Source: an uncultured Anaeromyxobacter sp.
Lineage (GTDB): Bacteria; Myxococcota; Myxococcia; Myxococcales; Anaeromyxobacteraceae
Assembly: GCA_903904005.1 (NCBI GenBank)
Contig: CAIVAR010000021.1
Location: 62,001 to 126,000, forward strand
Reading direction: 5' to 3'
Length of the DNA stretch: 64,000 nucleotides
A program made the position numbers and the translations under genes. Shown in pieces: positions 13,522 through 53,645 of the stretch. Every line of letters starts with the position of its first letter. Position 1 is the first letter of the stretch. A model generated the notes under the pieces. The model was not told where the DNA came from. It saw only the letters and a program-made list of their open reading frames with translations, and searched no databases.

Positions 13522-13953
13522 ATGAACCTCGGGGAGATCCTTCCGCCGGTGAACGCCGGCATGAACGCCACCAGCGCGGTGCTGCTCGTGATGGGCTGGC
13601 GTGCCGTCCGCGCCGGCGATCGGGTCCGCCACCGCGCCCTCATGCTCTCGGCGCTGGGCGTGTCGGCGCTCTTCCTCGTCGGGTACCTGACCCGGGTCGC
13701 CCTCACCGGCACCCACCGCTTCCCCGGCACCGGCGCGCTGCGGACCGCCTACCTGCTTCTCCTCGGCTCCCACACCGTCCTCGCGGCCGCGATCGTGCCG
13801 CTCATCGGCTTCGCCCTCTTCCACGCCTGGAAGGGAAACTTCGAGTCCCACCGGCGGGTGGCCCGCTACACCTTCCCGGCCTGGCTCTACGTCTCGGTGA
13901 CCGGCGTCCTCGTCTACGTGATGCTCTACTGGGTGGCGCCGAAGGTCTCTTGA
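13522..13953 (+). CDS. DUF420 membrane protein (CtaM/YozB-like)
   Basis: A 143-residue protein with four helices. It has the family's conserved His positions (DRVRHRALM, GTHRFPGT, SHTVLAA, FESHRRVARYTFPAWLYVSVTG). DUF420 proteins are needed for cytochrome oxidase assembly in Firmicutes (CtaM). It starts 9 bases after ctaB. Its stop codon overlaps the TTGACA of the tRNA promoter. Confidence 0.8.
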   Translation: MNLGEILPPVNAGMNATSAVLLVMGWRAVRAGDRVRHRALMLSALGVSALFLVGYLTRVALTGTHRFPGTGALRTAYLLLLGSHTVLAAAIVPLIGFALFHAWKGNFESHRRVARYTFPAWLYVSVTGVLVYVMLYWVAPKVS

Positions 13954-13978
13954 CACCCGCCGTCCCGACCCGTAAACA
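13950..13978 (+). promoter_or_regulatory. tRNA-Ala promoter
   Basis: A consensus TTGACA (13950-13955), 17-base spacer, TAAACA (13973-13978), 37 bases before the mature tRNA. The -35 overlaps the stop codon of the DUF420 gene. Confidence 0.5.
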
Positions 13979-13983
13979 AGCCC

Positions 13984-14004
13984 CCTCCCCGCTTCCCGGG
14001 GAGG
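13984..14004 (+). terminator. GC hairpin between DUF420 gene and tRNA
   Basis: CCTCCCC / GGGGAGG, 7-base arms with a 7-base loop. Only CTTTGA follows, so as a terminator for the cta operon it is weak. If the promoter at 13950 is right, it is instead a hairpin in the tRNA leader. Confidence 0.35.
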
Positions 14005-14015
14005 CTTTGAGGTAC

Positions 14016-14091
14016 GGGGCTGTAGCTCAGCTGGGAGAGCGCTAGAATCGCACTCTAGAGGTCTGGGGTTCGATCCCCCACAGCTCCACCA
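14016..14091 (+). tRNA. tRNA-Ala (CGC)
   Basis: A 76-base cloverleaf. Acceptor GGGGCTG pairs with CAGCTCC, including the G3-U70 wobble that defines alanine tRNAs. The D stem is GCTC/GAGC, the anticodon stem CTAGA/TCTAG has loop ATCGCAC (anticodon CGC, reads GCG), and the T arm is TGGGG TTCGATC CCCCA. The CCA end is encoded. Confidence 0.96.
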
Positions 14092-14109
14092 TTTTACGAA
14101 GGAATACCG

Positions 14110-14145
14110 GGCGGTTCGGAGACAACTCCGGACCGCCTCTTCTTT
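14110..14145 (+). terminator. Intrinsic terminator after tRNA-Ala
   Basis: A 12-base-pair stem GGCGGTTCGGAG/CTCCGGACCGCC, loop ACAA, followed by TCTTCTTT. It lies 18 bases after the tRNA and faces the convergent lipoprotein gene. Confidence 0.85.
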
Positions 14146-14167
14146 GACGCTCCGTGACTCTGCCCCG

Positions 14168-35889: not shown

Positions 35890-37101
35890 TCAGGCCGGCG
35901 GACCGGCTCGCTTCCATTCGGCGACCAGGGCCGGACCGCCGCGGACGGTGAAGACTACCGCAGCAGCCCCCTCCCCGGGCCTTCCAAGCCGGGCCACCCC
36001 GGCAGGGAATGCGAGCAGGGTGCAGCCGGCCAGGATCGCCCCGAAGCCCGTGAAGACTCCCCAGAGCCAGGGCGTACGGGTGTAGGTGAAGCGGCCCCAG
36101 CGCCCCATCGCGAGGACGCGCGCCTCGCCGGCGCCGAACGGGAACGGCATTCCCGGCAGGAGGGCGCGCCGGGTCCCGCGGCTCTCCATCCAGACGAGCA
36201 GCTTCCCCGGTCCGGCCGCGCCGTCGATGTCGCGCTCCGCCTCCACCACGAACCGGGCGGGCATGCCGACCGGATCGGTGACCTCGGCAGCCGCGCGCCT
36301 CGGGGTCTCCTCGGTGAGCCGCACCGTGCGCATTCCCATGCCGGGGATCTCGAACGTCATGGCCATCCCGGTGGGGATGGCCTGGAAGATCTCCACGCCC
36401 CCGGCGCGGATGCCGGACGCCCGGTCCACCGTCTCCACCAGCGGCGCCTCGCCCGGGAGGGTGATCTCCAGTTCCGAGAGCCGGTCGCTGGAGTAGCCGT
36501 GCTGCTTGCGGAAGGGGTCGAAGCGGACGAGCGCCACCTGCACGTCGGGCAGGGCCTCCGGCGCGAGCGGCCCGCGCTCCCGCCCGAAGACCGTCCCGTG
36601 TGCCGCCAGGCTCGCCCGTTCCCCCTCGGAGAGGTCGAAGGTACCCGAGTCGGAGAAGGCGTGCTGGACCAGCACCGTGGCGATGAGCACGAGCAGCCCC
36701 ACGTGCAGGAGCCACCCGCCCCAGAGCGCCGGGGCGAACCGGGTGAGGACCTCTCCGTGCCCGCGGAACCCCTCGGCGGCGAGGAAGGCGCGCACGTCCC
36801 CCTCTCCAGGCGGGAGGCGGGTGGCGGAGGGGGGAAGCTCCCCGCGCCCGATGGCGACCACCCGGGCCCGTCGCCCCCACGTGCAGGCGAACGTGCTCGC
36901 GAAGAGCAGCGCGATCCCGACGAGGAAGGCCCAGGCGGTGAACGGGTGGTCGAGCCCCACGGCCACGGCCCAGGCGGGCGCCGGAGGGCCGCCCGGCTGG
37001 ATCCAGGGCGCCCACGCCCCGACCCCGGTCCAGGCGGCCAGGAAGCCGATGACCGACAGCGCGAGGCGCGGCGAGCGCAGCAGCGAGACGAGACGGGACA
37101 C
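35890..37101 (-). CDS. resB: Cytochrome c biogenesis protein ResB
   Basis: A 403-residue protein. Three N-terminal helices (LALSVIGFLAAWTGVGAWAP; PFTAWAFLVGIALLFASTFA; LWGGWLLHVGLLVLIATVLV), a large periplasmic domain and a last helix (LWGVFTGFGAILAGCTLLAF) match ResB/Ccs1. The GTG start at 37101 shares its G with the TAG stop of the radical SAM gene, so the two are coupled. It is the partner of CcsA. Confidence 0.9.
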   Translation of the reverse strand: MSRLVSLLRSPRLALSVIGFLAAWTGVGAWAPWIQPGGPPAPAWAVAVGLDHPFTAWAFLVGIALLFASTFACTWGRRARVVAIGRGELPPSATRLPPGEGDVRAFLAAEGFRGHGEVLTRFAPALWGGWLLHVGLLVLIATVLVQHAFSDSGTFDLSEGERASLAAHGTVFGRERGPLAPEALPDVQVALVRFDPFRKQHGYSSDRLSELEITLPGEAPLVETVDRASGIRAGGVEIFQAIPTGMAMTFEIPGMGMRTVRLTEETPRRAAAEVTDPVGMPARFVVEAERDIDGAAGPGKLLVWMESRGTRRALLPGMPFPFGAGEARVLAMGRWGRFTYTRTPWLWGVFTGFGAILAGCTLLAFPAGVARLGRPGEGAAAVVFTVRGGPALVAEWKRAGPPA

Positions 37102-38600
37102 TACCCGACCGCGGCGGCCCCGGTTCCTGGGACCTCCATGCCGATCTCGGCCAGCATCTCCTTCACCGAGTCCGGCATGCTGGCATGGCCCGCCATCCGC
37201 TTCATCTCCGCGCCCAGGTAGCTGTTCTCGATGAGGAGCTTCAGCACCTTGATCATGAAGCGGCGCTTCTCGGGCGTGAGCTTCCCGAGGTTCTTGAACT
37301 TGTCGTGGAAGAAGTGGCCGGTGGCCCGGTGGAGCTCGCCGTGGAGCTCCTCGATGGTCATGTTGTCCGGCTTCATCACCGGTTCGACGAGGTTGTAGCG
37401 CCGGTAGTCCTTGGTGACGAGGCGGCTCTCCATCTCCGGGCCGATCTCGGAGTAGGGCCAGGGCGTGAGCGCGAGGAAGAAGGCCATGTCGGGCGCGTAC
37501 CACTTGGCGAGCTCGACGGTCTCCCGGACCGAAGCCGTCGTCTCGTCGGGGGTGCCGAGCACGAAGGAGGTCTCGGACACCATGCCGAACTGGTTGATGA
37601 GGTCGATGGCCTTCTTCGACTCGGTGACCTTGATGTCCTTCTTGTAGAGGTCGAGCGTGGCCTGGGACGTCGACTCGACGCCCAGGTAGACGTGCGAGAC
37701 CCCGGCCTTCACGTACTTCGAGAGGATGTCCTCGTCGCGCAGGACGTCGTCGACCCGCGTCTCCATGAGCAGTTCGAGACCGCTCTGCCGCTCGGCGAGC
37801 AGGTCGAGGACCTTCTCCCAGCGGGCCCGGTCGGTGGTGGGCGTCTCGTCGGAGAGCATGGCCACCGCCACGCCGTACCGGTCGCGGAGCATCTCGAGCT
37901 CGGTGACGAACTTGAGCGGGTCGCGCCCGCGCCAGCTTCGCCCCCAGAACTTCTGCTGGGAGCAGAAGGAGCAGCGCTGCGCACAGCCGCGCGCGGAGCT
38001 GACGATGGCGAGCTTGCCCTGGGGGCTCGGGCGGTACCAGTAGAGCGGCCAGTCGACGAGGTCGAAGGCGGGCTGGAACCGGTCGAGGTCGAAGCAGAGC
38101 ATCCGAGCCGGGGTGGAGAAGGGGACGCCGTCCTTGCGGAAGGCGAGCCCGGCGATGCGCTCGTACCCCTCCCCTGCCGCCACCGCCTGGACCAGCTCGG
38201 CGATGGTCCGCTCCCCCTCCCCGCGCACCACGAAGTCGACGCTGGGGTCGTCCTTGAGGATGTCCTCCCAGCAGTAGGTGGCGTGGACGTTGCCGATGAC
38301 CGTCTTCACGGCGGGGTTCCAGGCCTTGGCCGTGGCGCAGATCACCCGGGCGTCGGGCTCGGTGGCGGTGATGGCGGAGGTCCCGACGATGTCGGGCTTG
38401 AACTCCGCGATCTTCTTCGCGATGTCGTCGTGGGAGACGAACATCGACATGGCGTCGTAGATCTCGACCTCGGCCCCGGCAGCCCGGGCCTCGCCGGCCA
38501 CGTAGACCATGGCGAGCGGCATCCAGGTCCCGGCGGCCTCGACCACGCCGGCGTGGTACGGCGACGTGATGAGCAGAAGGCGTGGCTTTCTACCGGGCAT
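37101..38600 (-). CDS. B12-binding radical SAM protein
   Basis: A 499-residue enzyme. Residues 5-140 form a cobalamin-binding Rossmann domain (LLLITSPYHAG ... DIVGTSAITATEPDA) without the classic DxHxxG His. Near residue 200 the Fe-S motif ARGCAQRCSFCSQQKF (Cx3CxxC) begins the radical SAM barrel, and VYLGVESTSQATLDLYKK follows. It belongs to the broad BchE/HpnP/MiaB-like B12 group. AGAGGAT before the ATG at 38600 fixes the start. It is the first gene of an operon with resB, ccsA and a lipoprotein, so a heme- or cytochrome-related modification is suggested, not shown. Confidence 0.85.
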   Translation of the reverse strand: MPGRKPRLLLITSPYHAGVVEAAGTWMPLAMVYVAGEARAAGAEVEIYDAMSMFVSHDDIAKKIAEFKPDIVGTSAITATEPDARVICATAKAWNPAVKTVIGNVHATYCWEDILKDDPSVDFVVRGEGERTIAELVQAVAAGEGYERIAGLAFRKDGVPFSTPARMLCFDLDRFQPAFDLVDWPLYWYRPSPQGKLAIVSSARGCAQRCSFCSQQKFWGRSWRGRDPLKFVTELEMLRDRYGVAVAMLSDETPTTDRARWEKVLDLLAERQSGLELLMETRVDDVLRDEDILSKYVKAGVSHVYLGVESTSQATLDLYKKDIKVTESKKAIDLINQFGMVSETSFVLGTPDETTASVRETVELAKWYAPDMAFFLALTPWPYSEIGPEMESRLVTKDYRRYNLVEPVMKPDNMTIEELHGELHRATGHFFHDKFKNLGKLTPEKRRFMIKVLKLLIENSYLGAEMKRMAGHASMPDSVKEMLAEIGMEVPGTGAAAVG

Positions 38601-39976: not shown

Positions 39977-40225
39977 ATGGACGGAATCGACATGAAGCGC
40001 ACGAAGGACCTGGTGCTGGGCAAGGACGGCGCCGCCTTCGACACCAAGACCGGCCGGACCTACCGGCTGAACCCGAGCGGGGAGATGGCGCTGCGCCTCC
40101 TGCAGGAGGGGTTGCCCGAGGACGAGGTCGTCGGCCGGCTCGCGACCCACTTCGCCCAGCACGCGGCGGTGGTCGCCGCCGGCACCGAGGCCTTCGTGGG
40201 CCAGCTGCGGAGGTACCTGCCATGA
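39977..40225 (+). CDS. PqqD-family (RiPP recognition element) protein
   Basis: An 82-residue stand-alone PqqD-like protein. It has the winged-helix RRE pattern: a short beta part (LVLGKDGAAFDTKTGRTYRL), then NPSGEMALRLLQEGLPEDEVVGRL and a C-terminal helix. PqqD proteins bind a leader peptide or partner enzyme in RiPP pathways, and some relatives serve other ligases. AGGAGAG 4 bases before the ATG is a strong ribosome site. It overlaps the ATP-grasp gene by an ATGA, so the two are translated together. No precursor-peptide gene is evident in 39737-39976. Confidence 0.85.
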   Translation: MDGIDMKRTKDLVLGKDGAAFDTKTGRTYRLNPSGEMALRLLQEGLPEDEVVGRLATHFAQHAAVVAAGTEAFVGQLRRYLP

Positions 40226-41352
40226 CCGCCCGACGCGACCGGCGCCCCTGGACGCAGTGGACGGTCGGCCTCACCGGCGTGAACGCCCGCCCGGACAACC
40301 CTGGACCCGGCTGCGCGGTGGCGCGGTGCCTGAGCGAGGCCGGCGGGTTCCGCGGCCGCATCGTCGGGCTCGGCTACGGGACGCTCGACCCCGGCCTCTA
40401 CCACCCGGACGACGGCGACGGAGGGCACCTCCTCCCCTACCCGGCCGCCGGCGCCGACGCCCTCATGGAGCGGCTGGAGGAGATCCTTGCCGTGGAGCCC
40501 CTCGACGCCATCATCCCCAGCCTCGACGCCGAGCTCCCCAACTTCATCGCGCTCCAGCCGGAGCTGGCCCGGCGCGGGGTGCGCATGGTCCTCCCCGGGC
40601 GCGACCAGCTGCGCAGCCGCGACAAGGACCGGCTTCCGGCCCTCTGCGCGCGGGCCGGCGTGGCCACGCCACGGGTCCGCCCGGTGACCGACCCCGGGTT
40701 CTTCGAGCGCTGCACCGCCGAGGACGAGGGCGCCTGGCGCTATCCACTCGTCGTGAAAGGTGTCTTCTACGACGCCTACGTGGTCCACGAGCCGGCCGAG
40801 GCCGCCTACCGCTTCGGGCAGATCGCCCGCACCTGGGGCTACCCGGTGCTGGTCCAGGCCCACGTCGTCGGCGAGGAGGTCAACCTGGCCGCGCTCGGCG
40901 ACGGCAGCGGCGCGCTGGTGGGGCCGGTGATGATGCGCAAGCAGGCCCTCACCGAGAAGGGCAAGGCCTGGGCCGGGGTGGCCATCGACGACGGCGACCT
41001 GCTCTCCGCCGGAGAGCGGCTCATGCAGGCCCTCCGGTGGAACGGACCGCTCGAGCTGGAGATGCTTCGCGATGGCTCGGGGACGCTCCACCTCATCGAG
41101 ATCAACCCGCGCTTCCCGGCCTGGATCTACCTCTCCCACGCCGTGGGCAGGAACCTCCCGGCGGCGCTGCTGGCGCTCCAGCAGGGGGTGCGGAGGGAGG
41201 ACCTGCCGCTCTCCCCGCCCCGCCCCGGCGTCACCTTCATCCGCCACGCCCGCGAGATCATCGTCTCCATGGAGGAGATCGTGAGCGTGAGCATGAACGG
41301 CTCCACCCTTCCCCGCACCCTCCCCGATCCCCGCCGACGCCTCTCGGCCTGA
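40222..41352 (+). CDS. ATP-grasp ligase (carbamoyl-phosphate-synthase-like)
   Basis: A 376-residue ATP-grasp enzyme. An N-terminal Rossmann-like preATP domain (VGLTGVNARPDNPGPGCAVA) and DAIIPSLDAELPNFIALQ lead to the ATP-grasp core: YPLVVKGVFYDAYV, VLVQAHVVGEEVNLAALG and the Mg-binding LHLIEINPRFPAWIYL. Such enzymes join a carboxylate to an amine through an acyl phosphate. It is the second gene of the PqqD operon and precedes a PLP enzyme by 22 bases. A peptide, amino acid or polyamine substrate is plausible. I know no characterised close homologue. Confidence 0.88.
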   Translation: MTARRDRRPWTQWTVGLTGVNARPDNPGPGCAVARCLSEAGGFRGRIVGLGYGTLDPGLYHPDDGDGGHLLPYPAAGADALMERLEEILAVEPLDAIIPSLDAELPNFIALQPELARRGVRMVLPGRDQLRSRDKDRLPALCARAGVATPRVRPVTDPGFFERCTAEDEGAWRYPLVVKGVFYDAYVVHEPAEAAYRFGQIARTWGYPVLVQAHVVGEEVNLAALGDGSGALVGPVMMRKQALTEKGKAWAGVAIDDGDLLSAGERLMQALRWNGPLELEMLRDGSGTLHLIEINPRFPAWIYLSHAVGRNLPAALLALQQGVRREDLPLSPPRPGVTFIRHAREIIVSMEEIVSVSMNGSTLPRTLPDPRRRLSA

Positions 41353-41374
41353 ACCGCTTCAACGGAGAACCGCC

Positions 41375-42772
41375 ATGTCCAGGAACGAATGGGAAGCGCC
41401 CCGCATCACCCCGATGGAGTTCCACCAGCTGAACAAGTTCGGCGAGCGCCGGGTCGGGAGCAACGCCCAGGAGGCCATCGACGGCGTGCCCGTGGCGACG
41501 CTGGTCGAGCGCTTCGGCTCGCCGCTCTTCGTCACCTCCGAGCAGCGGCTGCGCAACAACGTCCGCCGGCTCCACCAGGCGTTCGCCTCGCGCGGGGTGA
41601 AGGTCATCCACGGATGGTCCTACAAGACCAACTACAACGGAGCGGTGTGCAACGTGCTCCACCAGGAGGGCTCCTGGGCCGAGGTGGTCTCGCGCTTCGA
41701 GTACGAGAAGGCGCGCCGGCTCGGTGTCCCCGGGAACCGCATCCTCTTCAACGGCCCGAACAAGCCGCGCGCCATCCTGGAGCGGGCCATCGCCGAGGGC
41801 GCACACCTGCACGTGGACCACCTGGACGAGCTGGCGACCATCGAGGACATCGCCCGACGCCGCGGCAAGCCGGTCCCGGTCGCGCTGCGCCTGAACTTCG
41901 ACACCGGGTTCTCCGAGCCCTGGAGCCGCTTCGGCTTCCACCTGGAGTCGGGTCAGGCCCGCGAGGCCATCGCCACCGTCCAGTCGAGCCCGCACCTCGA
42001 GCTGGTCGGGCTGCACAGCCACATCGGCACCTTCATCCTCGACCCGCGCGCCTACGCGGCGCAGGTGCGGGTCCTGTGCGGGCTCATGAAGGAGGTCGAG
42101 GCCGACGGGCGAACCCGCCTCGACTACCTCGACATCGGCGGGGGCTTCCCGTCCCGGAACGCGCTGCAGGGGATCTACCTGCCGCCCGAGCAGGTGGTGC
42201 CCGACCGCGAGGAGTTCGCCGAGGCCATCTGCACCGCCTTCCTGGAGGGGACCGCCCACCGCGTCGAGAGGGGCGACGAGCGGCCGGCGCTGGTCTTCGA
42301 GAGCGGCCGGGCCGTGGTCGACGACGCCCAGGTGCTCGTCACCTCGGTGGTCGGCCGCAAGCAGCTTCCCGGTGGGGGCCCGGCGGCGATCCTCGACGCC
42401 GGCATCAACCTGCTCTTCACCGCCTTCTGGTACAACCACGACGTCCGGCTGGCCTCGCCCCCGCGCGGGGAGCCGCGAGAGACCGTGCTGTACGGGCCGA
42501 TGTGCATGAACATCGACGTCGTTCGCGCCTCGGTCCAGCTCCCTCCTCTCCAGCCCGGTGACCGGCTCGTCATCTCCCCGGTCGGCGCCTACAACAACAC
42601 CCAGTGGATGCAGTTCATCGAGTACCGGCCCGCGGTGGTGATGATCCACCCCGACCGGGCGGTGAGCGTCATCCGCACCGCCGAGGACCTCGACAGCATG
42701 TGCGCCCACGAGCGGATGCCCGCACACCTGGCCCATCCCGACAACGTCATCCCCTTCCCGGCGGTCGGCTGA
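41375..42772 (+). CDS. Fold-type III PLP decarboxylase-like enzyme (LysA/NspC family)
   Basis: A 465-residue PLP enzyme. The Schiff-base Lys is K84 in GWSYKTNYNG. The alpha/beta barrel shows HSHIGTFILDPRAYAAQV and YLDIGGGFPS (phosphate-binding Gly loop); the C-terminal domain carries ESGRAVV and YGPMCMNIDVV with the active-site Cys-Asp region. This is the diaminopimelate/ornithine-decarboxylase group. The first 40 residues are extra. GGAG 8 bases before the ATG sets the start. Its place after an ATP-grasp ligase suggests that it decarboxylates or epimerises an amino-acid part of the product. Confidence 0.85.
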   Translation: MSRNEWEAPRITPMEFHQLNKFGERRVGSNAQEAIDGVPVATLVERFGSPLFVTSEQRLRNNVRRLHQAFASRGVKVIHGWSYKTNYNGAVCNVLHQEGSWAEVVSRFEYEKARRLGVPGNRILFNGPNKPRAILERAIAEGAHLHVDHLDELATIEDIARRRGKPVPVALRLNFDTGFSEPWSRFGFHLESGQAREAIATVQSSPHLELVGLHSHIGTFILDPRAYAAQVRVLCGLMKEVEADGRTRLDYLDIGGGFPSRNALQGIYLPPEQVVPDREEFAEAICTAFLEGTAHRVERGDERPALVFESGRAVVDDAQVLVTSVVGRKQLPGGGPAAILDAGINLLFTAFWYNHDVRLASPPRGEPRETVLYGPMCMNIDVVRASVQLPPLQPGDRLVISPVGAYNNTQWMQFIEYRPAVVMIHPDRAVSVIRTAEDLDSMCAHERMPAHLAHPDNVIPFPAVG

Positions 42773-42773
42773 C

Positions 42774-44912
42774 GTGCGCGCCCTGCTCACGGCCGCCGGG
42801 TCCCTCTTCCTGGCATCGTCGCCCGCGGTCGGCGCACTCGTGCTCGCGGCGACCCTGCTCGACCCGTCGGTGGGCCTCCTGGGCCTGGCGGCGGCACTCT
42901 CGGCAATGGGGGTCCGGGCGCTCCTGCGCCTGCCCGGCCTGGCTGGCGAGACGGAACTCCTGAACGCGCTCTACGTGGGGCTCGTGCTGGGCGCCTTCCA
43001 CCCGGCGGACGGGCGCCTGGTCTTCCTGGCGTCGCTGGGCGGAGGGCTCGTGGTGCTCCTCGGATCGGCGCTCGGCCCCGTGCTGCGGAGGGCCCACGAC
43101 CTGCCGCTGCTCGGCGCGCCGTTCCTCTGCACCGCCTGGACGCTGCTCCCCGCGGCGACGGCGCTGGGGATCCCGTTGCGGGGCCCCGCCCCGTCGGTCC
43201 TCTTTCCGGCCTGGCTCGGCCCGCAGCTGACCAGCGCGCTCTCCACCGTCGGCGCGCTGCTCTACGTTCCCAATCCGCTCTCCGGGGCGACGGTCGTCGC
43301 CGCGTTGCTGCTCGCCTCTCCGGTCCTCGGGCTCCTCGCGCTCGGCGGCGGTGGCCTGGCCTGGGTCCTCGTCGCGGCGGGAGGGGCGCCGGCCGGCTCC
43401 TCGCTGCCGATGCTGGCGGCCTTCAACGGGGCGCTGGTGGCGCTCGTCCTGGGCACCCATGCCACGGCCGCGCGGCGCAGCCTGGCGGTCGTCGCCGCCG
43501 GAGTGGTCGCGTCGACCGCCCTTTCGGCGGGGCTCCTCGCCACCCTCTGGCCCCTCGGCCTGCCGCCCCTCTCCGCGCCGTTCCTGCTCTCGGTGTGGCT
43601 CGTCCGCGCCGCCCTGCGGGCCGAGCACGGCCTGACCTGGTCCCGGTTCTGGCTCCCTGCTCCGGCGAGGCCGGAGGAGAGCCTGAGCCGGCTGCGGCTG
43701 GCGAGGGCGCGGGGCGTCGACCCCACCAGCATCGGGCTTCGCCCTCCCTTCCTCGCGCGCATGGAGGTCTCCCAGCCGATGGGGGGCGCCCTCACCCACC
43801 ACGGCCCGTGGCGGTACGCGCTCGACTTCGTCCGGACCGAGGAGGGGCGAAGCTTCCTGGGCGGAGGCGAACGGCTCGAGGACTTCCACGCCTTCGACCT
43901 TCCGGTGGTCTCCCCGGCCTGGGGAACGGTACTCTCCTGTCGCGGCGACGTGCCGGACAACCCGCCCGGCGGGATCAACCTGCAGGACAACTGGGGCAAC
44001 CACGTGCTCTTCCAGCTTCCGGGTGGCCCATCGGTCCTGCTCGCGCACCTGCGCCAGGGGAGCGTTGCCGTCGTGCCCGGTCAGTGGGTCGTCCCCGGCA
44101 CGCCGATCGGCCGCTGCGGCAACAGCGGACGCTCCACCCAGCCCCACCTGCACCTCCAGGTCCAGCAGGGCGGCTGGCTCGGGGCGCCCACCCGACCCTT
44201 CCACCTGTCCGGCTACCTCGACCGGGACGGGGGGCTCGTCCTGGACGGCACCCCCGCGGCCGGCGAGGCGGTGGAGCACGCTCCGGTGAACGGTTCCCTG
44301 ACCGGAGCCCTGGGGCTGCCTCCCGGACGGGAATGGCGCTTCGCGATCGACGACGGCACCTGGGGGCTCTCGGTCCGGCTCGGGCTCCTCGGCGAGACCA
44401 CGCTGGTCTCCGACCGTGGCGGGAACGTGCAGGCCTTCCAGGGGGACCTGCTCTTCTCCCTCTTCCGCCGCGCCGGCCCCGCCGATCCGGTGCTCGACGC
44501 CTTCGCCCTGGCCTTCGGCCTCACACCCCTCGCGGAGGGGTGCCGCTCCTGGCGGGATTCACCCGAGGTGAACCTCATGGGGCTCACCCCCCTGGAGCGG
44601 CTCCGGGTCGCCCTGCGCCACCCCCTGGGGACCAACCTGGTGAGCCGCTACGAGCGCAGGTGGGACGGCCGGGCCGGCCTGTGGATCCAGCGGGGAGAGC
44701 ACCGCCTGCCGGCGCTCGGCGGCGACATCCTCGCCGAGAGCGAGGGCCGGCTCGACGAGACCGAAGGTCCGGTCGGGTTCCGCCTGTCGGTCGCCGGTCG
44801 CCGGGAGATCCGCGCCGGACTGGCCGGACTGGGCAACCGGGGCGACCACGGGATCCCCGGGTGGTCTGTCGACGTGCCCCCCCGAACTGCCGCCTCCTTC
44901 TCGACGCCATGA
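42774..44912 (+). CDS. Urea-transporter / M23-peptidase-like fusion protein
   Basis: A 712-residue protein, GTG start one base after the previous stop. Residues 1-290 form a urea-transporter-family domain of about ten helices, with internal repeats (LLNALYVGLVLGAF; MLAAFNGALVALVLG). Residues about 335-470 are an M23 fold with D351, H425 (LLAHLRQG) and the HxH pair H458/H460 (PHLHLQV). The position of the first zinc His (HxxxD) is Arg347 in WRYALD, so normal zinc binding may be lost or use H342/H343. The last 240 residues are unrecognised. It overlaps the kinase gene by an ATGA. It may move the operon's product or sense envelope state. Confidence 0.85.
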   Translation: MRALLTAAGSLFLASSPAVGALVLAATLLDPSVGLLGLAAALSAMGVRALLRLPGLAGETELLNALYVGLVLGAFHPADGRLVFLASLGGGLVVLLGSALGPVLRRAHDLPLLGAPFLCTAWTLLPAATALGIPLRGPAPSVLFPAWLGPQLTSALSTVGALLYVPNPLSGATVVAALLLASPVLGLLALGGGGLAWVLVAAGGAPAGSSLPMLAAFNGALVALVLGTHATAARRSLAVVAAGVVASTALSAGLLATLWPLGLPPLSAPFLLSVWLVRAALRAEHGLTWSRFWLPAPARPEESLSRLRLARARGVDPTSIGLRPPFLARMEVSQPMGGALTHHGPWRYALDFVRTEEGRSFLGGGERLEDFHAFDLPVVSPAWGTVLSCRGDVPDNPPGGINLQDNWGNHVLFQLPGGPSVLLAHLRQGSVAVVPGQWVVPGTPIGRCGNSGRSTQPHLHLQVQQGGWLGAPTRPFHLSGYLDRDGGLVLDGTPAAGEAVEHAPVNGSLTGALGLPPGREWRFAIDDGTWGLSVRLGLLGETTLVSDRGGNVQAFQGDLLFSLFRRAGPADPVLDAFALAFGLTPLAEGCRSWRDSPEVNLMGLTPLERLRVALRHPLGTNLVSRYERRWDGRAGLWIQRGEHRLPALGGDILAESEGRLDETEGPVGFRLSVAGRREIRAGLAGLGNRGDHGIPGWSVDVPPRTAASFSTP

Positions 44913-46405
44913 TCCGGCTCACCATCCAGCGGAAGGCCTTCCTCGCCACCTTCGCCCTGGCGGGGGCCATGGCCGTCCTGCTCACCGGCCTCTACAGGGT
45001 GAACCTCGAGAAGGGCTTCCGCCGCTACGTGGTCGAGACCGAGATCGGACGGCTCGGCTGGCTGGTGACGGGCATCGAGGGGGCATACGCCCGGACCGGG
45101 AACTGGGACTTCCTCCGGAACAGCTCCGAGCCCTGGGACCGCGCCGGCGAGGCGCTCGGCGCGTTCGAGGCCGGAGCGCCCCGCCCCCCCGGCGACGGGC
45201 ACCCACCCCCCTTCCGCGGCCCGCCCGGATCCGGGGACCGCCCACCGCCGCCCCTCGCCGACGGACGGCCGCCCCATCCCGGTCCGCCCGGCGGCGGCCG
45301 CCCTCCCGACACCCTGGGATTCCGGCCTCGCCTCTCGCTCCTCGACGGCGAGGGCAAGCTCCTGGGCGGCGAGCCGCCACCCGACGGGTCCTCGGCCCGC
45401 CGCCCCATCCGCCACCGGGGCGAGACGGTGGGCTGGCTCGTGCTCCGGTCGCCCCCCACGGGGGAAGCCCTCGACCTGGCCTTCCTGGATACCCAGGCGC
45501 GCGGCCTGTGGATGTCGGGGCTCGCGGCGCTGGTCCTCTCCCTGGTCGCGGCCTGGCTCATCGCGCGCCAGCTCCTGGGCCCGATCCGCGACCTCACCCA
45601 GGGTGCACGCCACATCGCCCAGGGGCGGTTCTCGGAGCCGATCCCGGTGCGGGGGAACGACGAGCTCGGCGAGCTGGCCGCCGGCTTCAACGCCATGGCG
45701 GCCATGCTGGCCCGGGAGGAGGAGTCGAGGCGTCAGTGGATCGCCGACAGCTCCCACGAGCTGCGCACCCCCATCGCCGTCCTGCGCGCCGAGATCGAGG
45801 CCCTCCAGGACGCCGTCCGCACCGCCGACGAGCCCACGCTCGCGCGCCTGCACCGCAACGTCATGCAGATGGGCAAGCTCGTCGACGACCTGCGACAGAC
45901 CCTCGACCGGGACGACGGGAAGCCCGATCTCGAGCTCGCCTCGATCGACCCGGTGCCCCTCCTCCGCGAGGCGGCGGAAGGCTTCCGGGAACGGCTCCAG
46001 GCGGTCGGGATCGCGCTCGACCTCACCCGCCTGCCCGGACCGGGCCCGGGCTGGCGCGTCCGGGGCGACTCCGATCGCCTCCTCCAGGTCTTCGGGAACC
46101 TGCTCGAGAACACGCTCCGCTACACCGATCCGGGCGGCCGCCTCGAGGTGGCCGCGACGGCGCGCGGCGGAACGCTCCTCGTCACCTTCGACGACACGGC
46201 ACCCGCACCACCGGAGAAGGCCATGCAGCGTCTCTTCGAACGGTTCTTCCGGGCCGAGCCCTCGCGCAGCCGCCAGCACGGCGGCTCCGGCCTGGGGCTC
46301 GCCATCTGCAGGCGCATCGTCCAGGGGCACGGCGGGACGATCTCCGCAGCGCCGTCCCCGCTGGGCGGCCTCTCCATCCGCATCGAGCTGCCCCTGGAGT
46401 CCTGA
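44909..46405 (+). CDS. Sensor histidine kinase with Pro/Gly-rich periplasmic loop
   Basis: A 498-residue BaeS/EnvZ-like kinase. First helix 10-30 (FLATFALAGAMAVLLTGLYR), periplasmic region, second helix near 200-220, a HAMP domain (LGPIRDLTQGARHIAQGRF), HisKA box SSHELRTPIAVLR (His near 284) and HATPase_c motifs N (NLLENTLRY), F and G2 (GGSGLGLAICRRIV). The periplasmic loop has a striking stretch (about 90-140) made mostly of Pro, Gly, Asp and His (GDGHPPPF, DGRPPHPGPPGG), which could bind metal or interact with wall polymers. It is coupled to the UT-M23 gene and to the regulator. Confidence 0.9.
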   Translation: MIRLTIQRKAFLATFALAGAMAVLLTGLYRVNLEKGFRRYVVETEIGRLGWLVTGIEGAYARTGNWDFLRNSSEPWDRAGEALGAFEAGAPRPPGDGHPPPFRGPPGSGDRPPPPLADGRPPHPGPPGGGRPPDTLGFRPRLSLLDGEGKLLGGEPPPDGSSARRPIRHRGETVGWLVLRSPPTGEALDLAFLDTQARGLWMSGLAALVLSLVAAWLIARQLLGPIRDLTQGARHIAQGRFSEPIPVRGNDELGELAAGFNAMAAMLAREEESRRQWIADSSHELRTPIAVLRAEIEALQDAVRTADEPTLARLHRNVMQMGKLVDDLRQTLDRDDGKPDLELASIDPVPLLREAAEGFRERLQAVGIALDLTRLPGPGPGWRVRGDSDRLLQVFGNLLENTLRYTDPGGRLEVAATARGGTLLVTFDDTAPAPPEKAMQRLFERFFRAEPSRSRQHGGSGLGLAICRRIVQGHGGTISAAPSPLGGLSIRIELPLES

Positions 46406-46406
46406 C

Positions 46407-47096
46407 ATGGAGAAGACCCGGATCCTGCTGGTCGAGGACGAGCCGGACCTGGCGCAGGTCCTCGCCGACTACCTCGTCCGCGACGGGTACGAGGCCTCGG
46501 TGGAGGGAAACGGGGCGAGGGCCCTGGAGCGGATCCGGCGGGAGCCACCCGACCTGCTGCTCCTCGACCTCATGCTCCCCGACCTCGATGGCCTCTCCAT
46601 CCTCCGCGAGGTGCGCCGGACGTCCCGGCTCCCCATCATCCTCGTCACCGCGCGGGTGGAGGAGATCGACCGGCTCCTCGGCCTCGATCTGGGGGCCGAC
46701 GACTACGTCTGCAAGCCCTACTCGCCCCGCGAGGTGCTGGCGCGGGTGAAGGCCGTCCTGCGCCGGTCCTCCGGCGCGGCGCCAGCGGGCGCAGGAGACC
46801 CCGTCCCACCTCCGCTCGTCGAGATCGACGCCGAGAACTGGATCGCCCGGGTCTCGGGGCAACGGCTCGACCTCACGCCCAAGGAGCTCCGGCTCCTCCA
46901 GGCCCTGTCGTCCCGCCCCGGGCGCGTCCTCTCCCGCGCCCAGCTCCTCGACCTCGTCTACAAGGACGACCTCGACGTGAGCGAGCGGGCCGTCGACAGC
47001 CACATGAAGAACCTGCGCCGGAAGCTCTCCCAGGCGGTGCCGGAGCGGGAGCTCATCCGCTCGGTGTACGGCGTGGGCTTCGCCTACGAGCCGTGA
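46407..47096 (+). CDS. OmpR/BaeR-type response regulator
   Basis: A 229-residue regulator. The receiver has acidic D11/E12, phosphoacceptor D54 (LLLLDLMLPDLDG), Thr in LVTARVEE and Lys in CKPYSPRE. A winged helix follows (LTPKELRLLQALSSRPGRVL ... VDSHMKNLRRKL ... IRSVYGVGFAYEP). It begins one base after the kinase stop, so it is the output half of the pair. The natural target would be the promoter upstream of the PqqD gene. It is the last gene of the operon. Confidence 0.93.
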   Translation: MEKTRILLVEDEPDLAQVLADYLVRDGYEASVEGNGARALERIRREPPDLLLLDLMLPDLDGLSILREVRRTSRLPIILVTARVEEIDRLLGLDLGADDYVCKPYSPREVLARVKAVLRRSSGAAPAGAGDPVPPPLVEIDAENWIARVSGQRLDLTPKELRLLQALSSRPGRVLSRAQLLDLVYKDDLDVSERAVDSHMKNLRRKLSQAVPERELIRSVYGVGFAYEP

Positions 47097-48141: not shown

Positions 48142-48729
48142 TCAACGCCGGACCAGCGCCTCCATCTCCTTCACCGCGGCGGCGAGCTCGGCGGCGATCG
48201 GCCCCACCTTCGACCGCTGGAAGACCTGGACCAGCTCCTGGAAGTACCAGACGGTCTCGTACTTGCCGTTGAAGCGCTCGAGCGTCTTCGCGCCATGTAC
48301 GCGAAGGTCGGCGACGATGGCCCGCGCGTTGTCGAGCTTGTCGGCGGCGGAGACGAGCTGGGAGCGGGTCGGCTTCCCGGGGAGCGCGGCCAGGTAGGCC
48401 TCCTTGCGGGCCTTCCAGGGCGGCTTCACCTTCTCGAAGGTGTCGGTGCAGTCCTCCACCATCCGCGCCACGTCGCGCCCGAACCGCCCGCGGATCTTCT
48501 CGAGCCGGGGACGGCCTCCCCGGTCCTCGGCCGCGTCGTGGAGGAGCGCGGCGATGGCCTGAGCCTCGTCCCCCTCGAAGTGGAGGACGATCCCGGCCGT
48601 TCCGAGCAGGTGGGCGGCGTAGGGTACCTCCTTCCCCTTCCGCTTCTGCTTCCGGTGGAGCTTGAGCGCGTGGACGAGCGCGTCGTCGAACCGCTTCCCC
48701 AGCCGTCGATTCCGTTCCAGCTTCGCCAT
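48142..48729 (-). CDS. HD-domain phosphohydrolase (RelA/SpoT-type HD)
   Basis: A 195-residue protein of the (p)ppGpp-hydrolase-like HD family. The metal site is visible as [31 protein letters not shown] (the HD pair) and [16 protein letters not shown]. There is no synthetase or TGS domain, so it is a free HD enzyme that could hydrolyse ppGpp or another nucleotide. GGAGGA precedes the ATG at 48729. It diverges from the esterase with overlapping -10 boxes. Confidence 0.87.
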
Positions 48730-48747
48730 GGATTCCTCCGTTCCGTT

Positions 48748-48755
48748 TGTATACT
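48748..48755. promoter_or_regulatory. Overlapping divergent -10 boxes
   Basis: TATACT on + (48750-48755) for the esterase and TATACA on - (48753-48748) for the HD gene share the same bases, so only one polymerase could use the site at a time. No clear -35 for either. Confidence 0.4.
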
Positions 48756-48773
48756 GCTTCAGGAGCGTCCCCC

Positions 48774-50360
48774 ATGCCCGCACCGCACCTCCTCCTCGTT
48801 CTTTTCTCGACCCTCGCCGGCGCGTCCCCCGACCCGACCCTGGTGCGCACCGCCACGGGCCTGGTTCGCGGCGTCGCCGGGGACGCCGTCCTGGAGTGGA
48901 AGGGCATCCCCTACGCCCGCCCCCCGCTCGGGGACCTCCGCTGGGCGCTCCCCCGCCCCGCGCCCTCCTGGAGGGGCGAGCGGGACGCCACCCGGTTCCG
49001 GAGCGCCTGCCCCCAGGCGTCGCGGTATGGCCTGACCGCGGCCAGCTCCGACGAGGATTGCCTGTACGTGAACGTCACCGTGCCCGCCGAGGCCGGGAAG
49101 GCGGCAGCGGGGCGCCCGGTCATCGTCTGGATCCACGGCGGGGCCTTCGTGGGGGGCTCGAGCGACCTCTACCCGCTCGGCCCCATGGCCCGGTCCGGAG
49201 ATTCCGTGGTGGTCTCCTTCAACTACCGGATCGGGGTGCTCGGGTTCATGCCCCATCCCGCCTTCGACGCCGCGCACTCCGGCGGGTACGGGCTCGAGGA
49301 CCAGCGGGCCGCCCTTCGCTGGGTGAAGCGCAACGTCGCCGCCTTCGGTGGCGATCCCGGAAACGTCACCATCGCCGGGGAGTCGGCCGGTGCGTCCAGC
49401 GTCTGCATGCACCTCATCGCCCCCGACGAGACGAGCGGGCTCTTCCACCGGGCCATCGTGCAGAGCGGCGGCTGCGCCCACCACCTGCGCACGGTGGCGG
49501 AGGCCTCGGAGATCGGCCGGAAGGTGGCGGCGCAGGTCGGCTGCGACGGGACCGGCGCCGCGGCGCTCGCCTGCCTGCGCGGCAAGCCGGTGAAGGATCT
49601 GCTCGAGGCCGGCTCGAAGGTCGCAGGCTCCGACCTCATGGCCTTCGCCCCCGCCGTCGGGGCCCGGACCGTTCCGCGCCAGGGTGCCGATGCGCTGGCC
49701 TCCGGCAAGTTCGTGCGGGTTCCCGTCCTGAACGGCGGCAACCGGGACGAGATGCGGCTCTACGTCGCCTACGAGGTCCAGGCGGGCGCCACGGTGACGG
49801 CGGAGAACTACCTCGGGCACCTCCGCAAGGCCTACGGCACGAACGCGGAGGCCGTCCTGGCCGAGTACCCGCTCTCCGGCTTCTCCTCCCCGGCCGCGGC
49901 GCTCGGCACGGTCGAGTCCGATTTCAACCCGGCCGTGGGGCTGAACAACTGCATCTTCCTCCGGGGCGCCGCCCTCGCCGCGCGGTACGTGCCGGTCTTC
50001 GAGTACGAGTTCACCGATCGTGCCGCGCCACCGGTGACCACCGATCCCGGCTTCGAGATGGGAGCGGTCCACTCCGCGGAGCTGCCGTACCAGTTCCCGC
50101 ACTTCTCCAACACGAGCCAGGTCGACGGGCCGGACCTGGCCGCGCCATCGCAGCAGCTCGCCGGCCAGATGATGGCGTACTGGACCTCCTTCGCCCGCAC
50201 CGGAAGGCCCTCGGGCACCGGCCTGCCCGCCTGGAAGCCCTTCAAGTCGGACCGCTCCGTGATGCGCCTCGAGCCCGGCAAGGTGGGCGACTTCGATGCC
50301 GGGGCGGCCCACCACTGCGCCTTCTGGCGCCGGCTCTATCCGGAGGCCCTGGGAAGATGA
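48774..50360 (+). CDS. Type B carboxylesterase
   Basis: A 528-residue secreted alpha/beta hydrolase. The signal peptide is short ([13 protein letters not shown]). Classic type B motifs are [26 protein letters not shown], oxyanion [11 protein letters not shown], nucleophile elbow [11 protein letters not shown] (Ser near 204), [10 protein letters not shown] and [11 protein letters not shown] near the end (His). AGGAG 8 bases before the ATG at 48774 selects the start. It hydrolyses carboxylic esters; the substrate is unknown. It overlaps the next gene by an ATGA. Confidence 0.93.
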
Positions 50361-50806
50361 CCACGCTCCTCCACGATCAGCGGATCCTCGTCCTCGCCAC
50401 TGCCGACCCGGACCCCTGGTCGGCGCCGGTCTACTTCGCCTTCCTCCGCGGCCGCCTCTACTTCCTCTCCAGCCCGCGAAGCCGCCACGTCACCGCGTCG
50501 CTCGCCGCCCGGCGCTGCGCCGGATCGGTCCACCGCGACCATGCCGACTGGCGGGAGATCCAGGGGCTGCAGCTGGACGGGACGATCGAGGAGATCTCCG
50601 GAGGGCCGGAGGGCGTCAACGCGATCGCCGCCTACCTGGGCAAGTTTCCGGACGTGAAGGCTCTCGTCGGGGGAGAGGCGCCGGACCTGGCCGTCTTCAC
50701 CGCGCGCCTCCGCGCCCGGCTCTACGCCTTCGTGCCGGCACGGGCCTTCCTCGTGGACAACCGCTCCGGTCTCTCCGGGCGGCGCGAGATCCCGCTTCCC
50801 CGCTGA
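50357..50806 (+). CDS. Pyridoxamine-phosphate-oxidase-like flavin-binding protein
   Basis: A 149-residue protein with the split-barrel PNPOx-like fold: [31 protein letters not shown], then [11 protein letters not shown]. Members bind FMN, F420 or heme and some are general reductases. It overlaps the esterase stop by ATGA, so the two are co-expressed. Reaction not assignable. Confidence 0.82.
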
Positions 50807-50869
50807 GGCGATCCCCCTTTCTGCTACCATTCCCTCCGCCGTCCGCACTCGCCCCCGGGAGCCCCTCAC

Positions 50870-51484
50870 GTGCCGATCGTCTGCCTCGACCTCGAAGGCG
50901 TCCTCGTCCCGGAGATCTGGATCGCATTCTCGGAACGTACGGGCATCGCCGAGCTTCGCCGCACCACGCGTGACGAGCCCGACTACGACAAGCTGATGCG
51001 GGGACGGCTCGAGCTCTTGCGCCGGCACCGGCTGGGGCTACCGGACATCCAGAAGGTCATCGCCGACATGGGGCCGGAACCGGGCGCCCGGACCTTCCTC
51101 GACGCGCTCCGGCTTCGCTACCAGGTCGTGATCCTGTCCGACACCTTCTACGAGTTCGCCATGCCGCTCATGGCGCAGCTGGGGCAGCCGACCCTCTTCT
51201 GCCACCGGCTCTCCACCGACGCGGCGGGCTTCGTCTCGGCCTACCACCTCCGGATGCCCGACCAGAAGCGCGCCGCGGTGAAGGCCTTCCAGGGATTGGC
51301 CTTCCAGGTGATCGCCGCGGGGGACTCGTACAACGACACCGCCATGCTGGGCGCGGCCGACGCGGGCATCCTCTTCCGGCCGCCGCAGAACGTCATCGAC
51401 GCCTTCCCCCAGTACCCGGTGGTCCGGGAATACGACGCGCTCCGCGAGCGGATCGACGAGGCCGCCCGCCGCATCGGCGGGTGA
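50870..51484 (+). CDS. thrH: ThrH phosphoserine phosphatase / homoserine phosphotransferase
   Basis: A 204-residue HAD enzyme, GTG start. The catalytic loop CLDLEGVLVPEIWIAFSE carries DxE rather than DxD, as in ThrH. Motif II is VILSDTFYEF, and the late acidic pair lies in AAGDSYNDTAMLG. ThrH dephosphorylates phosphoserine and can transfer the phosphate to homoserine. The gene at 51488 follows after 3 bases. Confidence 0.92.
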   Translation: MPIVCLDLEGVLVPEIWIAFSERTGIAELRRTTRDEPDYDKLMRGRLELLRRHRLGLPDIQKVIADMGPEPGARTFLDALRLRYQVVILSDTFYEFAMPLMAQLGQPTLFCHRLSTDAAGFVSAYHLRMPDQKRAAVKAFQGLAFQVIAAGDSYNDTAMLGAADAGILFRPPQNVIDAFPQYPVVREYDALRERIDEAARRIGG

Positions 51485-51487
51485 CGG

Positions 51488-52042
51488 ATGCACGGCGATC
51501 CCGCACCCACCCCGCCCCGGAGCCCGACCTGGCTCCAGAAGCTGAAGCACGAGACCGCGGAGTACCTCGCCGTCTTCGCCTACATGGCGGCGATCCTCCT
51601 CGCCTTCGCGATCTACAACAGCGCCATCCTCGCCGAGTACGGCGTGGCCTACCTGCCCATCGCCTTCGGACTCCTGGAGGCCGCCATCCTCGCCAAGATC
51701 GTGGTCATCGGCCAGGCCTTCCACTTCGGCGTCCGGTTCGACGGTCGGCCGCTCGCGTGGACGGTCCTCTACCGGTCGATCGTCTTCGCGCTGCTCACGG
51801 CGGCCTTCGCCGTTGCCGAGGAGGGCGTGAAGCGGCTCCTGCACCACCAGAAGCTCATCGAGCACCGGGCGCTCGACGCGCCCTGGGCCTGGGATCGGGC
51901 GGTGGCGCACGCCGTCATCCTCTTCGTGGCCTTCGTTCCGCTCTTCGCCATCCAGGAGCTCGGCAAGGCGCTCGGACCCGGCAAGCTCTCCGGCTACTTC
52001 TTCGGCGACCGGCGCCGGGGACATCCGGAAGCGAAGGGCTGA
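51488..52042 (+). CDS. Four-helix membrane protein, unknown
   Basis: A 184-residue protein with four predicted helices (YLAVFAYMAAILLAFAIYN; YLPIAFGLLEAAILAKIVVIG; LYRSIVFALLTAAFAVAEEG; AVAHAVILFVAFVPLFAIQEL) and polar ends. It is close behind thrH and probably shares its transcript. It is convergent with the oleate hydratase gene 10 bases away. Not recognised. Confidence 0.8.
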   Translation: MHGDPAPTPPRSPTWLQKLKHETAEYLAVFAYMAAILLAFAIYNSAILAEYGVAYLPIAFGLLEAAILAKIVVIGQAFHFGVRFDGRPLAWTVLYRSIVFALLTAAFAVAEEGVKRLLHHQKLIEHRALDAPWAWDRAVAHAVILFVAFVPLFAIQELGKALGPGKLSGYFFGDRRRGHPEAKG

Positions 52043-52052
52043 CCGCCGGGCG

Positions 52053-53645
52053 TCAGCTGCTGATGGCCTTTGCCGCGGCGATCAGGACCTCGGGCTGGTG
52101 GATCGAATCGTAGACCGGCAGGACCTCCTTGCCGGTCTCGTACAGCCCGTACACGGCCATCTGGGCGGTCCTCACCGAGTACTCGACCGTGAAGACGCAG
52201 TCGATCGGCGCCTCGGCGAACTGCCCCAGGAAGGCGAAGTTCTCGGCCCCCTCGGGCAGGACCTTGGGCCGGTCCCCGAGCTTCCGGGGCATGAAGAGGC
52301 TGTCCACGTAGGGCATCGCCACCGGGATGCAGTTCACCTTTCCGGCGTCCATCACCGGCTGCATCCGATCCTGGATGCGGAGGTGGTGCCAGAGCTCCTC
52401 GAGCATCTCCTTGCCGGTGCACTCGGCCATCGTCTTCGGGACGAAGTTGCCCTTCCGGTCGGAATGGAGCCCGTAGCCCCAGAAGATCTTCACGTCGGGC
52501 GGCTGGTTCGGGAAGTGCGGCTGCCGGGCGATCACGAAGGACATGAGCCAGTTCGAGTCGGTCAGCGTCACGAGCCCGCCGGTCCCGTCCACGTTGCCGG
52601 AGAAGTTCTCCATGTAGTCGTGGAAGGTGGCGTCCTTCAGCGTGGCCGTGAAGGACCACCAGCGCTGCAGGTCGATCCGGTCGCAGAAGGGGTCGGGGTC
52701 CCCGAAGGCGGCGTCCTTCGCGGCCAGCCGCTTCCACAGCTGCCAGGAGCCCGACTCGGCGAGCCCCTTCAGCTTCGCCGGCTGGCTCCAGGTTCCGTTG
52801 TCGGTGCTCTCGGTGAGCGAGCCGTTCGTGACGAGCACGCAGTCGTCCTTCCCGAGCACGATCTCGCTGCCGTCCTTCAGGTGGATCAGCGTGGCCCGCT
52901 TCCGGTCGGCCGAGAGGTCGAAGCCGATGTCCACGACCTCCTTGCCGGTGTGGAACCGGACGCCCCGGGCCTCGAGGTAGCGCACCAGCGGGACGACCAC
53001 CGAGTGGTACTGGTTGTACTTGGTCCGCATCACGCCGCCGAGCCGGGGGAGCCCCGCGACCAGGTGGATGAAGCGCTTCATGTAGCGGCGCATCTCGGCC
53101 AGGCTGCTCCACTTCTGGAAGGCGAACATCGACGTCCAGAAGAACCAGAAGTTGGTGGTGAAGAAGTCGTGGTCGAACCAGTCCTCGATCCGCCGGTCGC
53201 CGAGCACCTTCTCCGGGACGAAGGTCAGCTCGAGCAGCTTCATCTGCTGCCGCTTGGAGAGGCCGAAGGAGGAGACGTCGAGCTTCTTCCCCTCCCGGAG
53301 CAGGCGCGCCTGGGCGTTGCTGACGAACCGCTTGTTGAAGTCGAACGACTCGTCCCGCACCGAGACGTTCGGGTCCTCGAACGACGGGATGGCGGAGAGC
53401 AGGTCCCAGTAGCAGGTGTAGTGCATCTCGTGCATGCGCCCACCGCGCACCACGAAGCCCTTCTCGGGATCGCCGGCCCCGTCGAGCGCCCCGCCGAGGA
53501 TGGCGTCCTTCTCGAGAATGTGGATGTTCTTCCCGGGCACGCCGGCGTCCCGCTCCAGGTAGACGGCGCTCGCCAGCGAGGCGATGCCGCTGCCGACGAG
53601 GTAGACGTGGGACAGGGCCGGGTCGATCTTCGGTTTCGCGGACAT
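52053..53645 (-). CDS. ohyA: Oleate hydratase (MCRA family)
   Basis: A 530-residue FAD enzyme that adds water to the cis-9 double bond of unsaturated fatty acids. The FAD-binding start VYLVGSGIASLASAVYLERD, GGRMHEMHYTCYWDLLSAIP, NKRFVSNAQARLL and FVPKTMAECTGKEMLEELW match the 67-kDa myosin-cross-reactive-antigen family throughout. No helper genes are near. It may detoxify free unsaturated fatty acids. The 249 bases upstream (53646-53894) hold nothing I can assign. Confidence 0.95.
   Translation of the reverse strand: MSAKPKIDPALSHVYLVGSGIASLASAVYLERDAGVPGKNIHILEKDAILGGALDGAGDPEKGFVVRGGRMHEMHYTCYWDLLSAIPSFEDPNVSVRDESFDFNKRFVSNAQARLLREGKKLDVSSFGLSKRQQMKLLELTFVPEKVLGDRRIEDWFDHDFFTTNFWFFWTSMFAFQKWSSLAEMRRYMKRFIHLVAGLPRLGGVMRTKYNQYHSVVVPLVRYLEARGVRFHTGKEVVDIGFDLSADRKRATLIHLKDGSEIVLGKDDCVLVTNGSLTESTDNGTWSQPAKLKGLAESGSWQLWKRLAAKDAAFGDPDPFCDRIDLQRWWSFTATLKDATFHDYMENFSGNVDGTGGLVTLTDSNWLMSFVIARQPHFPNQPPDVKIFWGYGLHSDRKGNFVPKTMAECTGKEMLEELWHHLRIQDRMQPVMDAGKVNCIPVAMPYVDSLFMPRKLGDRPKVLPEGAENFAFLGQFAEAPIDCVFTVEYSVRTAQMAVYGLYETGKEVLPVYDSIHQPEVLIAAAKAISS

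Follow-up and report, generated by a model that had tools for sequence, protein, structure and literature searches.

In butirosin biosynthesis, the ATP-grasp enzyme BtrJ loads glutamate onto the carrier protein BtrI, and a pyridoxal phosphate (PLP) enzyme then carries out the decarboxylation. Stand-alone recognition elements (RREs) of the pathways for ribosomally synthesized and post-translationally modified peptides (RiPPs) occur in lasso peptide systems, where PadeB1 has an affinity of about 5 nM for its leader (PMC5067487). The RRE-Finder model for stand-alone lasso RREs recovers almost 8,000 proteins, only about 4,000 of them with lasso genes (PMC7470986). Here we analyzed an operon at positions 39977-47096 of a 64,000-nucleotide stretch (the window: assembly GCA_903904005.1, contig CAIVAR010000021.1, positions 62,001 to 126,000) from an uncultured Anaeromyxobacter sp. 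It encodes a PqqD-like RRE, an ATP-grasp ligase, a PLP decarboxylase (P0002), a urea transporter-fold protein fused to an M23 peptidase (UT-M23) and a two-component pair. The set almost certainly represents a conserved, uncharacterised pathway, and its best explanation, to which we assign a probability of about 0.5, is a tailoring pathway in the cytoplasm whose parts are linked by the RRE, which would dock on the N-terminal tail of the decarboxylase, with UT-M23 serving in processing or passage.

The first-pass annotation had named conservation of gene order as one test of its proposal, and this conservation was found for four of the six genes. A total of 84,980 species genomes were scanned with an alignment of eight ATP-grasp sequences and the best 80 loci were read; the operon-type ATP-grasp was confirmed at at least 556 genome loci. 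Neighbours were counted by six-frame profile tallies over the best 80 loci and the loci of the window's class. PqqD lies directly upstream of the ATP-grasp gene in 83 of 85 loci, the PLP gene is adjacent to it in 78 of 80, and 72 of 74 have UT-M23 no more than 6 kb away; therefore, the core consists of the PqqD/RRE, the ATP-grasp enzyme, the PLP decarboxylase and the UT-M23 fusion. This core was seen in Pseudomonadota, Melainabacteria/Obscuribacterales, Bacteroidota, Ignavibacteriota and Acidobacteriota, and since the identical order recurs in such distant phyla, the association is far beyond chance. In a whole-genome search of the window's class, a high-scoring ATP-grasp was present in nine genomes, all nine with the operon. 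The same nine carry the divergent urea transporter (UT), while five other class genomes have ordinary UTs and no operon; these counts are not phylogenetically independent. Among open-licence papers we came across none that treats the gene set or the fusion, nor did we find a curated family for the system, in agreement with the proposal that the combination of RRE, amide-ligase fold, PLP decarboxylase and UT-M23 is a conserved pathway with no described equivalent.

The PqqD protein of the window belongs to its Pfam family (34.5 bits, cut-off 23.4), and the best solved matches of the operon PqqD profile in the PDB are the lasso RREs TfuB1 (8e-7) and TbiB1 (5e-4). The operon PLP enzymes share an N-terminal extension of about 25 residues, in which W/Y6, P9, I/L11, G17 and N20-K21-F22-G23 are conserved. 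A relaxed motif, [YWF]xxPx[LIVMF], occurs in the tail of all 83 N-terminally complete enzymes and its strict form in 74 of them. Among called genes the motif was found in 56 of 66 PLP genes, in 7 of 912 other genes, and in no ATP-grasp, PqqD or UT-M23 gene; the three PLP paralogues in the window's own genome have no tail. The crystallised leaders bound to TfuB1 and TbiB1 read MEKKKYTAPQLAKVGEF and KTYTAPTLVEYGG, the two leader chains (6jx3_A and 5v1u_E) containing YTAPQL and YTAPTL; operon tails read MEKKRYERPHLVKLDTG (locus L111) and MIRPRYERPTLIRHVAG (locus L034), with WEAPRI in the window. In view of the affinity of PadeB1 for its leader, tight docking between RRE and tail would be plausible. 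The best reading of these sequences, and one that we somewhat favour, is that the PLP tail is the client of the RRE. This candidate has better support than the ligase or distant peptide that the PqqD protein had been suggested to serve, and docking onto the decarboxylase, if it occurs, would explain the missing precursor peptide. A role of PqqD as a carrier protein was rejected, as it has neither a conserved nucleophile or attachment residue nor an acidic terminus.

The AlphaFold 2 (AF2) model of the ATP-grasp enzyme (predicted local distance difference test score, pLDDT, 93.6) matches the folds of the CarB-like protein 2pn1, biotin carboxylases, the L-amino-acid ligases 3vot and 4wd3 and PylC (4ffl), and the metal-binding E-x-N motif (E293, N295) is invariant in the operon family. 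The enzyme is a putative amide ligase. A plasmid of Streptomyces zaomyceticus (locus L029, 10040-12900) encodes ATP-grasp and PLP decarboxylase as a single fused protein, in support of a coupled action of ligase and decarboxylase. This fusion has neither an RRE nor a tail; docking would be needless where the two enzymes are joined, and we count the case in favour of the role proposed for the tail. Behind the fusion gene come a gene whose 195-aa product belongs to no known family and a fatty acid desaturase gene.

The best solved relative of P0002 is the N-citrylornithine decarboxylase FigC (PDB 7kh2, 186 bits), compared with at most 131 bits for solved diaminopimelate (DAP) decarboxylases and 80 bits for BtrK; against the NCBIfam FigC model it reaches 199.5 bits (cut-off 500). 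With residue roles taken from the FigC study (PMC7857480), the catalytic C354 as well as M355, T327, Y331 and R290 of FigC align with C377, M378, T349, Y353 and R312 of P0002. However, I380 and Q410, both invariant in the operon enzymes, stand where FigC has H357 and R387, which contact citrate, and invariant W352 stands in place of T330, suggesting that the substrate may be a larger acylated compound without citrate. The enzyme had been annotated as of the ornithine/DAP-decarboxylase type; its identity as a PLP decarboxylase stands on the Pfam match, but its active site is nearest to that of N-citrylornithine decarboxylase. Identity with LysA was rejected, since P0002 has CMNID instead of CES, a threonine at the substrate-binding arginine position and 220 bits against a cut-off of 297.9; a separate paralogue in the same genome carries the LysA motif CESSD.

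From the gene set, the tail motif, the relationship of the RREs, the folds, the catalytic residues, the replaced citrate ligands and the charge topology described below, we infer the following scheme of RRE-tail binding, reaction order and export. The ATP-grasp enzyme would join an amino acid to a carboxylate through an amide bond, and the PLP enzyme would then decarboxylate the amino-acid part to give an acylated amine, a two-step logic as in N-citrylornithine and butirosin side-chain synthesis. The PqqD/RRE would bind no precursor peptide but the YxxPxL-like tail of the PLP enzyme, docking it to a partner, most likely the ligase. The UT-fold membrane protein, whose M23 domain would face the cytoplasm, may trim the product or set it free and then move either the product or a small piece of it through the inner membrane; an exported tetratricopeptide repeat (TPR) protein and an outer-membrane barrel would extend the route in many lineages, and BaeSR-like or TetR-RRE proteins may regulate the pathway. 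The full chain from ligation through decarboxylation and processing to export has at most an even chance of being correct.

Several observations weigh against this scheme. The NCBIfam lasso-leader model does not match the PLP tail and no similarity at the level of hidden Markov models (HMMs) to solved lasso leaders was found, so that the claim for the tail rests on the motif. The likeness is confined to this short motif, the glycine of the tail is shifted by one or two residues towards the C-terminus relative to that of lasso leaders, and the tail could instead be part of the enzyme fold or of a dimer contact. The contact between RRE and ATP-grasp enzyme is only putative, and the Streptomyces homologue is a single remote case without UT-M23. 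Moreover, known UT proteins have a pore that admits nothing larger than molecules of about the size of urea, which fits poorly with a large amide product.

The alternative that fares best, though still unlikely, is a RiPP or scaffold-peptide (pearlin-like) pathway, in which a precursor encoded elsewhere would be bound by the RRE, extended with an amino acid by the ligase, decarboxylated by the PLP enzyme and released by the M23 domain. Stand-alone RREs normally bind precursor peptides (PMC5067487, PMC7470986), and the clade of P0002 includes MccE and BtrK, which act on a peptide-linked and a carrier-linked substrate, respectively (PMC7857480). The predicted cytoplasmic location of the M23 domain would also fit, and there is precedent for building amino acids on a carrier peptide. 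On the other hand, clustering of small open reading frames (ORFs) within 3 kb at the 80 loci revealed no conserved small ORF, only local families and a conserved upstream DNA site, which bears out the earlier observation that no precursor peptide lies next to the operon. No lasso-leader match was found in the window's own genome or genus, and scanning the phylum and eight genomes that carry the operon with lasso-leader families returned chance matches only, while the RRE has a candidate ligand within the operon at every locus. A scan of the own genome with a degenerate DNA pattern for the tail motif was uninformative. No precursor composed of leader and core, as in lasso peptide biosynthesis, was found: there is no conserved small ORF, the lasso-leader model is unmatched and the motif is located on the PLP enzyme.

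The AF2 model of UT-M23 (pLDDT 92.6) matches the urea transporter dvUT (3k3g; target-normalised template modelling score about 0.8) and M23 domains. Both threonines of the LPxxTxPF motif are replaced in most operon members, by Ser/Gly and Ala/Ser, making selectivity for urea doubtful, whereas the metal-binding and catalytic M23 residues H342, D351, H425, H458 and H460 are invariant, as in an M23 peptidase. Such domains are usually peptidoglycan hydrolases, and an envelope system would place the M23 domain in the periplasm, where it opens peptidoglycan for a conduit of UT, TPR and outer-membrane-barrel proteins (or regulated partners) while the enzymes modify the cell wall or envelope. The TPR and barrel neighbours, an outer-membrane efflux protein at one locus and the BaeSR-like envelope-stress pair of some lineages are in line with such a system. 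However, with helices assigned from the AlphaFold model and the two-fold architecture known for UTs, all 51 sequences have their positive residues on the face of the UT fold that bears the N- and C-termini (6.1 versus 0.8 lysines and arginines per protein), and many members are cysteine-rich in the region on the M23 side. The positive-inside bias leads us to predict that the M23 and beta domains are cytoplasmic, and an envelope system thus appears improbable; from the charges, it is more likely that M23 processes the pathway's own intermediate rather than the cell wall. L046 (15710-17029) and L058 (15755-17353) encode a further UT-type protein, whose two halves are separated by TPR repeats (UT-TPR-UT), with an asparagine-synthetase-like (AsnB-like) gene beside it at these two loci only.

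Outside the core, the loci vary. The resemblance of the two-component pair to BaeSR, noted in the first-pass annotation, holds below the NCBIfam equivalog cut-offs (kinase 410 bits against 500 for BaeS, regulator 272 against 380 for BaeR), but the pair cannot be counted as a core component because most lineages have none, a TPR protein with an outer-membrane barrel being present instead in many. It follows UT-M23 in the window's genus, in Accumulibacter, where kinase and regulator are 52-54% and 65-67% identical to those of the window, and in several Melainabacteria/Obscuribacterales-type genomes. At many other loci its place is taken by two proteins, an exported TPR protein (about 208 aa) and a larger one (about 300 aa), the latter ending in tryptophan in 23 of 24 cases. 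A terminal tryptophan is typical of outer-membrane barrels, and the larger protein is likely one of these. Relatives from the window's own family and order and some Bacteroidota loci have a longer TPR protein at that position.

In Mariprofundaceae and others PqqD is fused to a TetR-type domain (TetR_N), and an alignment read by eye revealed a conserved TGAAAGT-N4-ACTTTCA-like near-palindrome upstream of these fusions, likely an operator (L068 8036-8200, L080 8021-8185, L090 149-313 and relatives). Together with the resemblance of RRE-type folds to DNA-binding domains (PMC7470986), these fusions would fit a purely structural PLP tail and a regulatory RRE, with stand-alone PqqD and TetR-PqqD sensing a metabolite or the enzyme and controlling expression without catalytic docking. 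We regard this as improbable, since most operon PqqD proteins are 80-95 aa long without a DNA-binding domain and the nearest RREs are known to bind a ligand with the motif seen in the tail. The least probable alternative is a siderophore-type or polyamine-amide pathway, with the ATP-grasp enzyme replacing the synthetase of nonribosomal peptide synthetase-independent siderophore (NIS) pathways beside a FigC-like decarboxylase and with RRE and UT as accessories: FigC is the closest solved relative of the PLP enzyme and the hosts include iron-oxidising or magnetotactic lineages (Mariprofundus, Gallionella, Ghiorsea, Magnetococcales), but the replaced citrate contacts and the lack of a consistent receptor-type neighbour argue against it.

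A check of ORFs and translations in the window confirmed the six coupled genes and their Pfam domain identities as first described, all on the forward strand and either overlapping or separated by no more than 22 bases (Table 1).

Table 1. Features of the operon in the window.
Feature	Position	Strand	Evidence and remarks
PqqD-like stand-alone RRE, 82 aa	39977..40225	+	Pfam PqqD 2.7e-8; lasso RREs are best PDB matches
ATP-grasp ligase, 376 aa	40222..41352	+	Pfam ATPgrasp_Ter 1.1e-7; ATGA overlap with PqqD
Alanine-racemase-fold PLP decarboxylase, FigC/FslC-like, 465 aa	41375..42772	+	Pfam Orn_Arg_deC_N 9.5e-32; 22-base gap before
Leader-like N-terminal tail of PLP enzyme, residues 6-23, WEAPRITPMEFHQLNKFG	41390..41443	+	Conserved across loci
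[YW]xxPx[LI] motif inside PLP tail	41390-41407	+	Compare leader chains 6jx3_A, 5v1u_E
UT-fold/M23 peptidase fusion, 712 aa	42774..44912	+	Pfam UT 1.6e-26 and Peptidase_M23 6.3e-11; 1-base gap before
M23 peptidase domain, predicted cytoplasmic	43731..44243	+	Invariant H342, D351, H425, H458, H460; charge bias
C-terminal beta-rich domain, no Pfam match	44244..44909	+	AF2 secondary structure
BaeS-like sensor histidine kinase, lineage-specific member	44909..46405	+	Pfam HATPase_c/HAMP/HisKA; ATGA overlap with UT-M23
BaeR-like OmpR-family response regulator, lineage-specific member	46407..47096	+	Pfam Response_reg/Trans_reg_C; 1-base gap before

Neither a consensus promoter or terminator near the operon nor a riboswitch or other RNA family within it was found, and its G+C content is not distinct from the surroundings. 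PADLOC gave no match for the operon, and identity as a defence system was rejected on this ground. Directly upstream on the opposite strand lies a B12-binding radical SAM gene (37101-38546, -), adjoined by a ResB-like gene (35890-37101); at the same-genus locus L030 a different gene lies upstream. The flank at 48142-53645 encodes an HD_4 domain protein, a carboxylesterase, a HAD hydrolase and an MCRA-family protein, with no link to the operon seen. In Allochromatium palmeri (L042), two nitrogenase-component-1-type oxidoreductase genes lie directly downstream of the operon (13946-16689).

In the ATP-grasp tree the window's genus groups with Allochromatium and Accumulibacter with full support, while the operons of its own family and order sit apart, with Ignavibacteriota and Bacteroidota. 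The simplest reading of this split is that the genus probably gained the operon by horizontal transfer.

If the proposed docking holds, an RRE gripping the decarboxylase's own tail would be a new use of the RRE binding module, and a stand-alone RRE need not imply a hidden precursor peptide. The operon could then account for some of the lasso-type RREs without lasso genes, and it marks a widespread pathway. For the wider proposal that RREs are general docking modules beyond RiPPs, so that in a large, unnoticed pathway family an RRE would recognise a lasso-leader-like tag on a metabolic enzyme and thereby bring ligase and decarboxylase together in a complex, we consider the odds evenly balanced.

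Compared with the lasso systems (B1/E proteins; TfuB1-TfuA, TbiB1-TbiA, PadeB1-PadeA), the operon shares the PqqD fold, the closest solved RRE sequences and the aromatic-xxPx-aliphatic motif, but its core has no precursor, and neither a B2 leader peptidase nor a lasso cyclase is found beside the RRE among the conserved genes; here an enzyme carries the motif at its N-terminus. The ATP-grasp enzyme has the overall fold and catalytic motif of L-amino-acid ligases and PylC at about 15-21% identity. UT-M23 has the fold of the urea transporters dvUT (3k3g) and UT-B, to which it adds the M23 and beta domains and, in most members, a changed LPxxTxPF motif. With FigC/FslC (7kh2) the decarboxylase has in common the alanine-racemase fold, the catalytic cysteine, the Met355-type loop and the threonine and tyrosine of the specificity helix; it differs in the isoleucine and glutamine at the citrate contacts, the tryptophan for T330 and the extra leader-like tail, and its neighbour is an ATP-grasp enzyme, not an NIS synthetase. 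The butirosin pair BtrJ/BtrK likewise combines a ligase with a decarboxylase of the same clade (BtrK: PMC7857480) acting in sequence, but on an acyl carrier, which has no counterpart here; the operon PqqD proteins have no conserved attachment residue.

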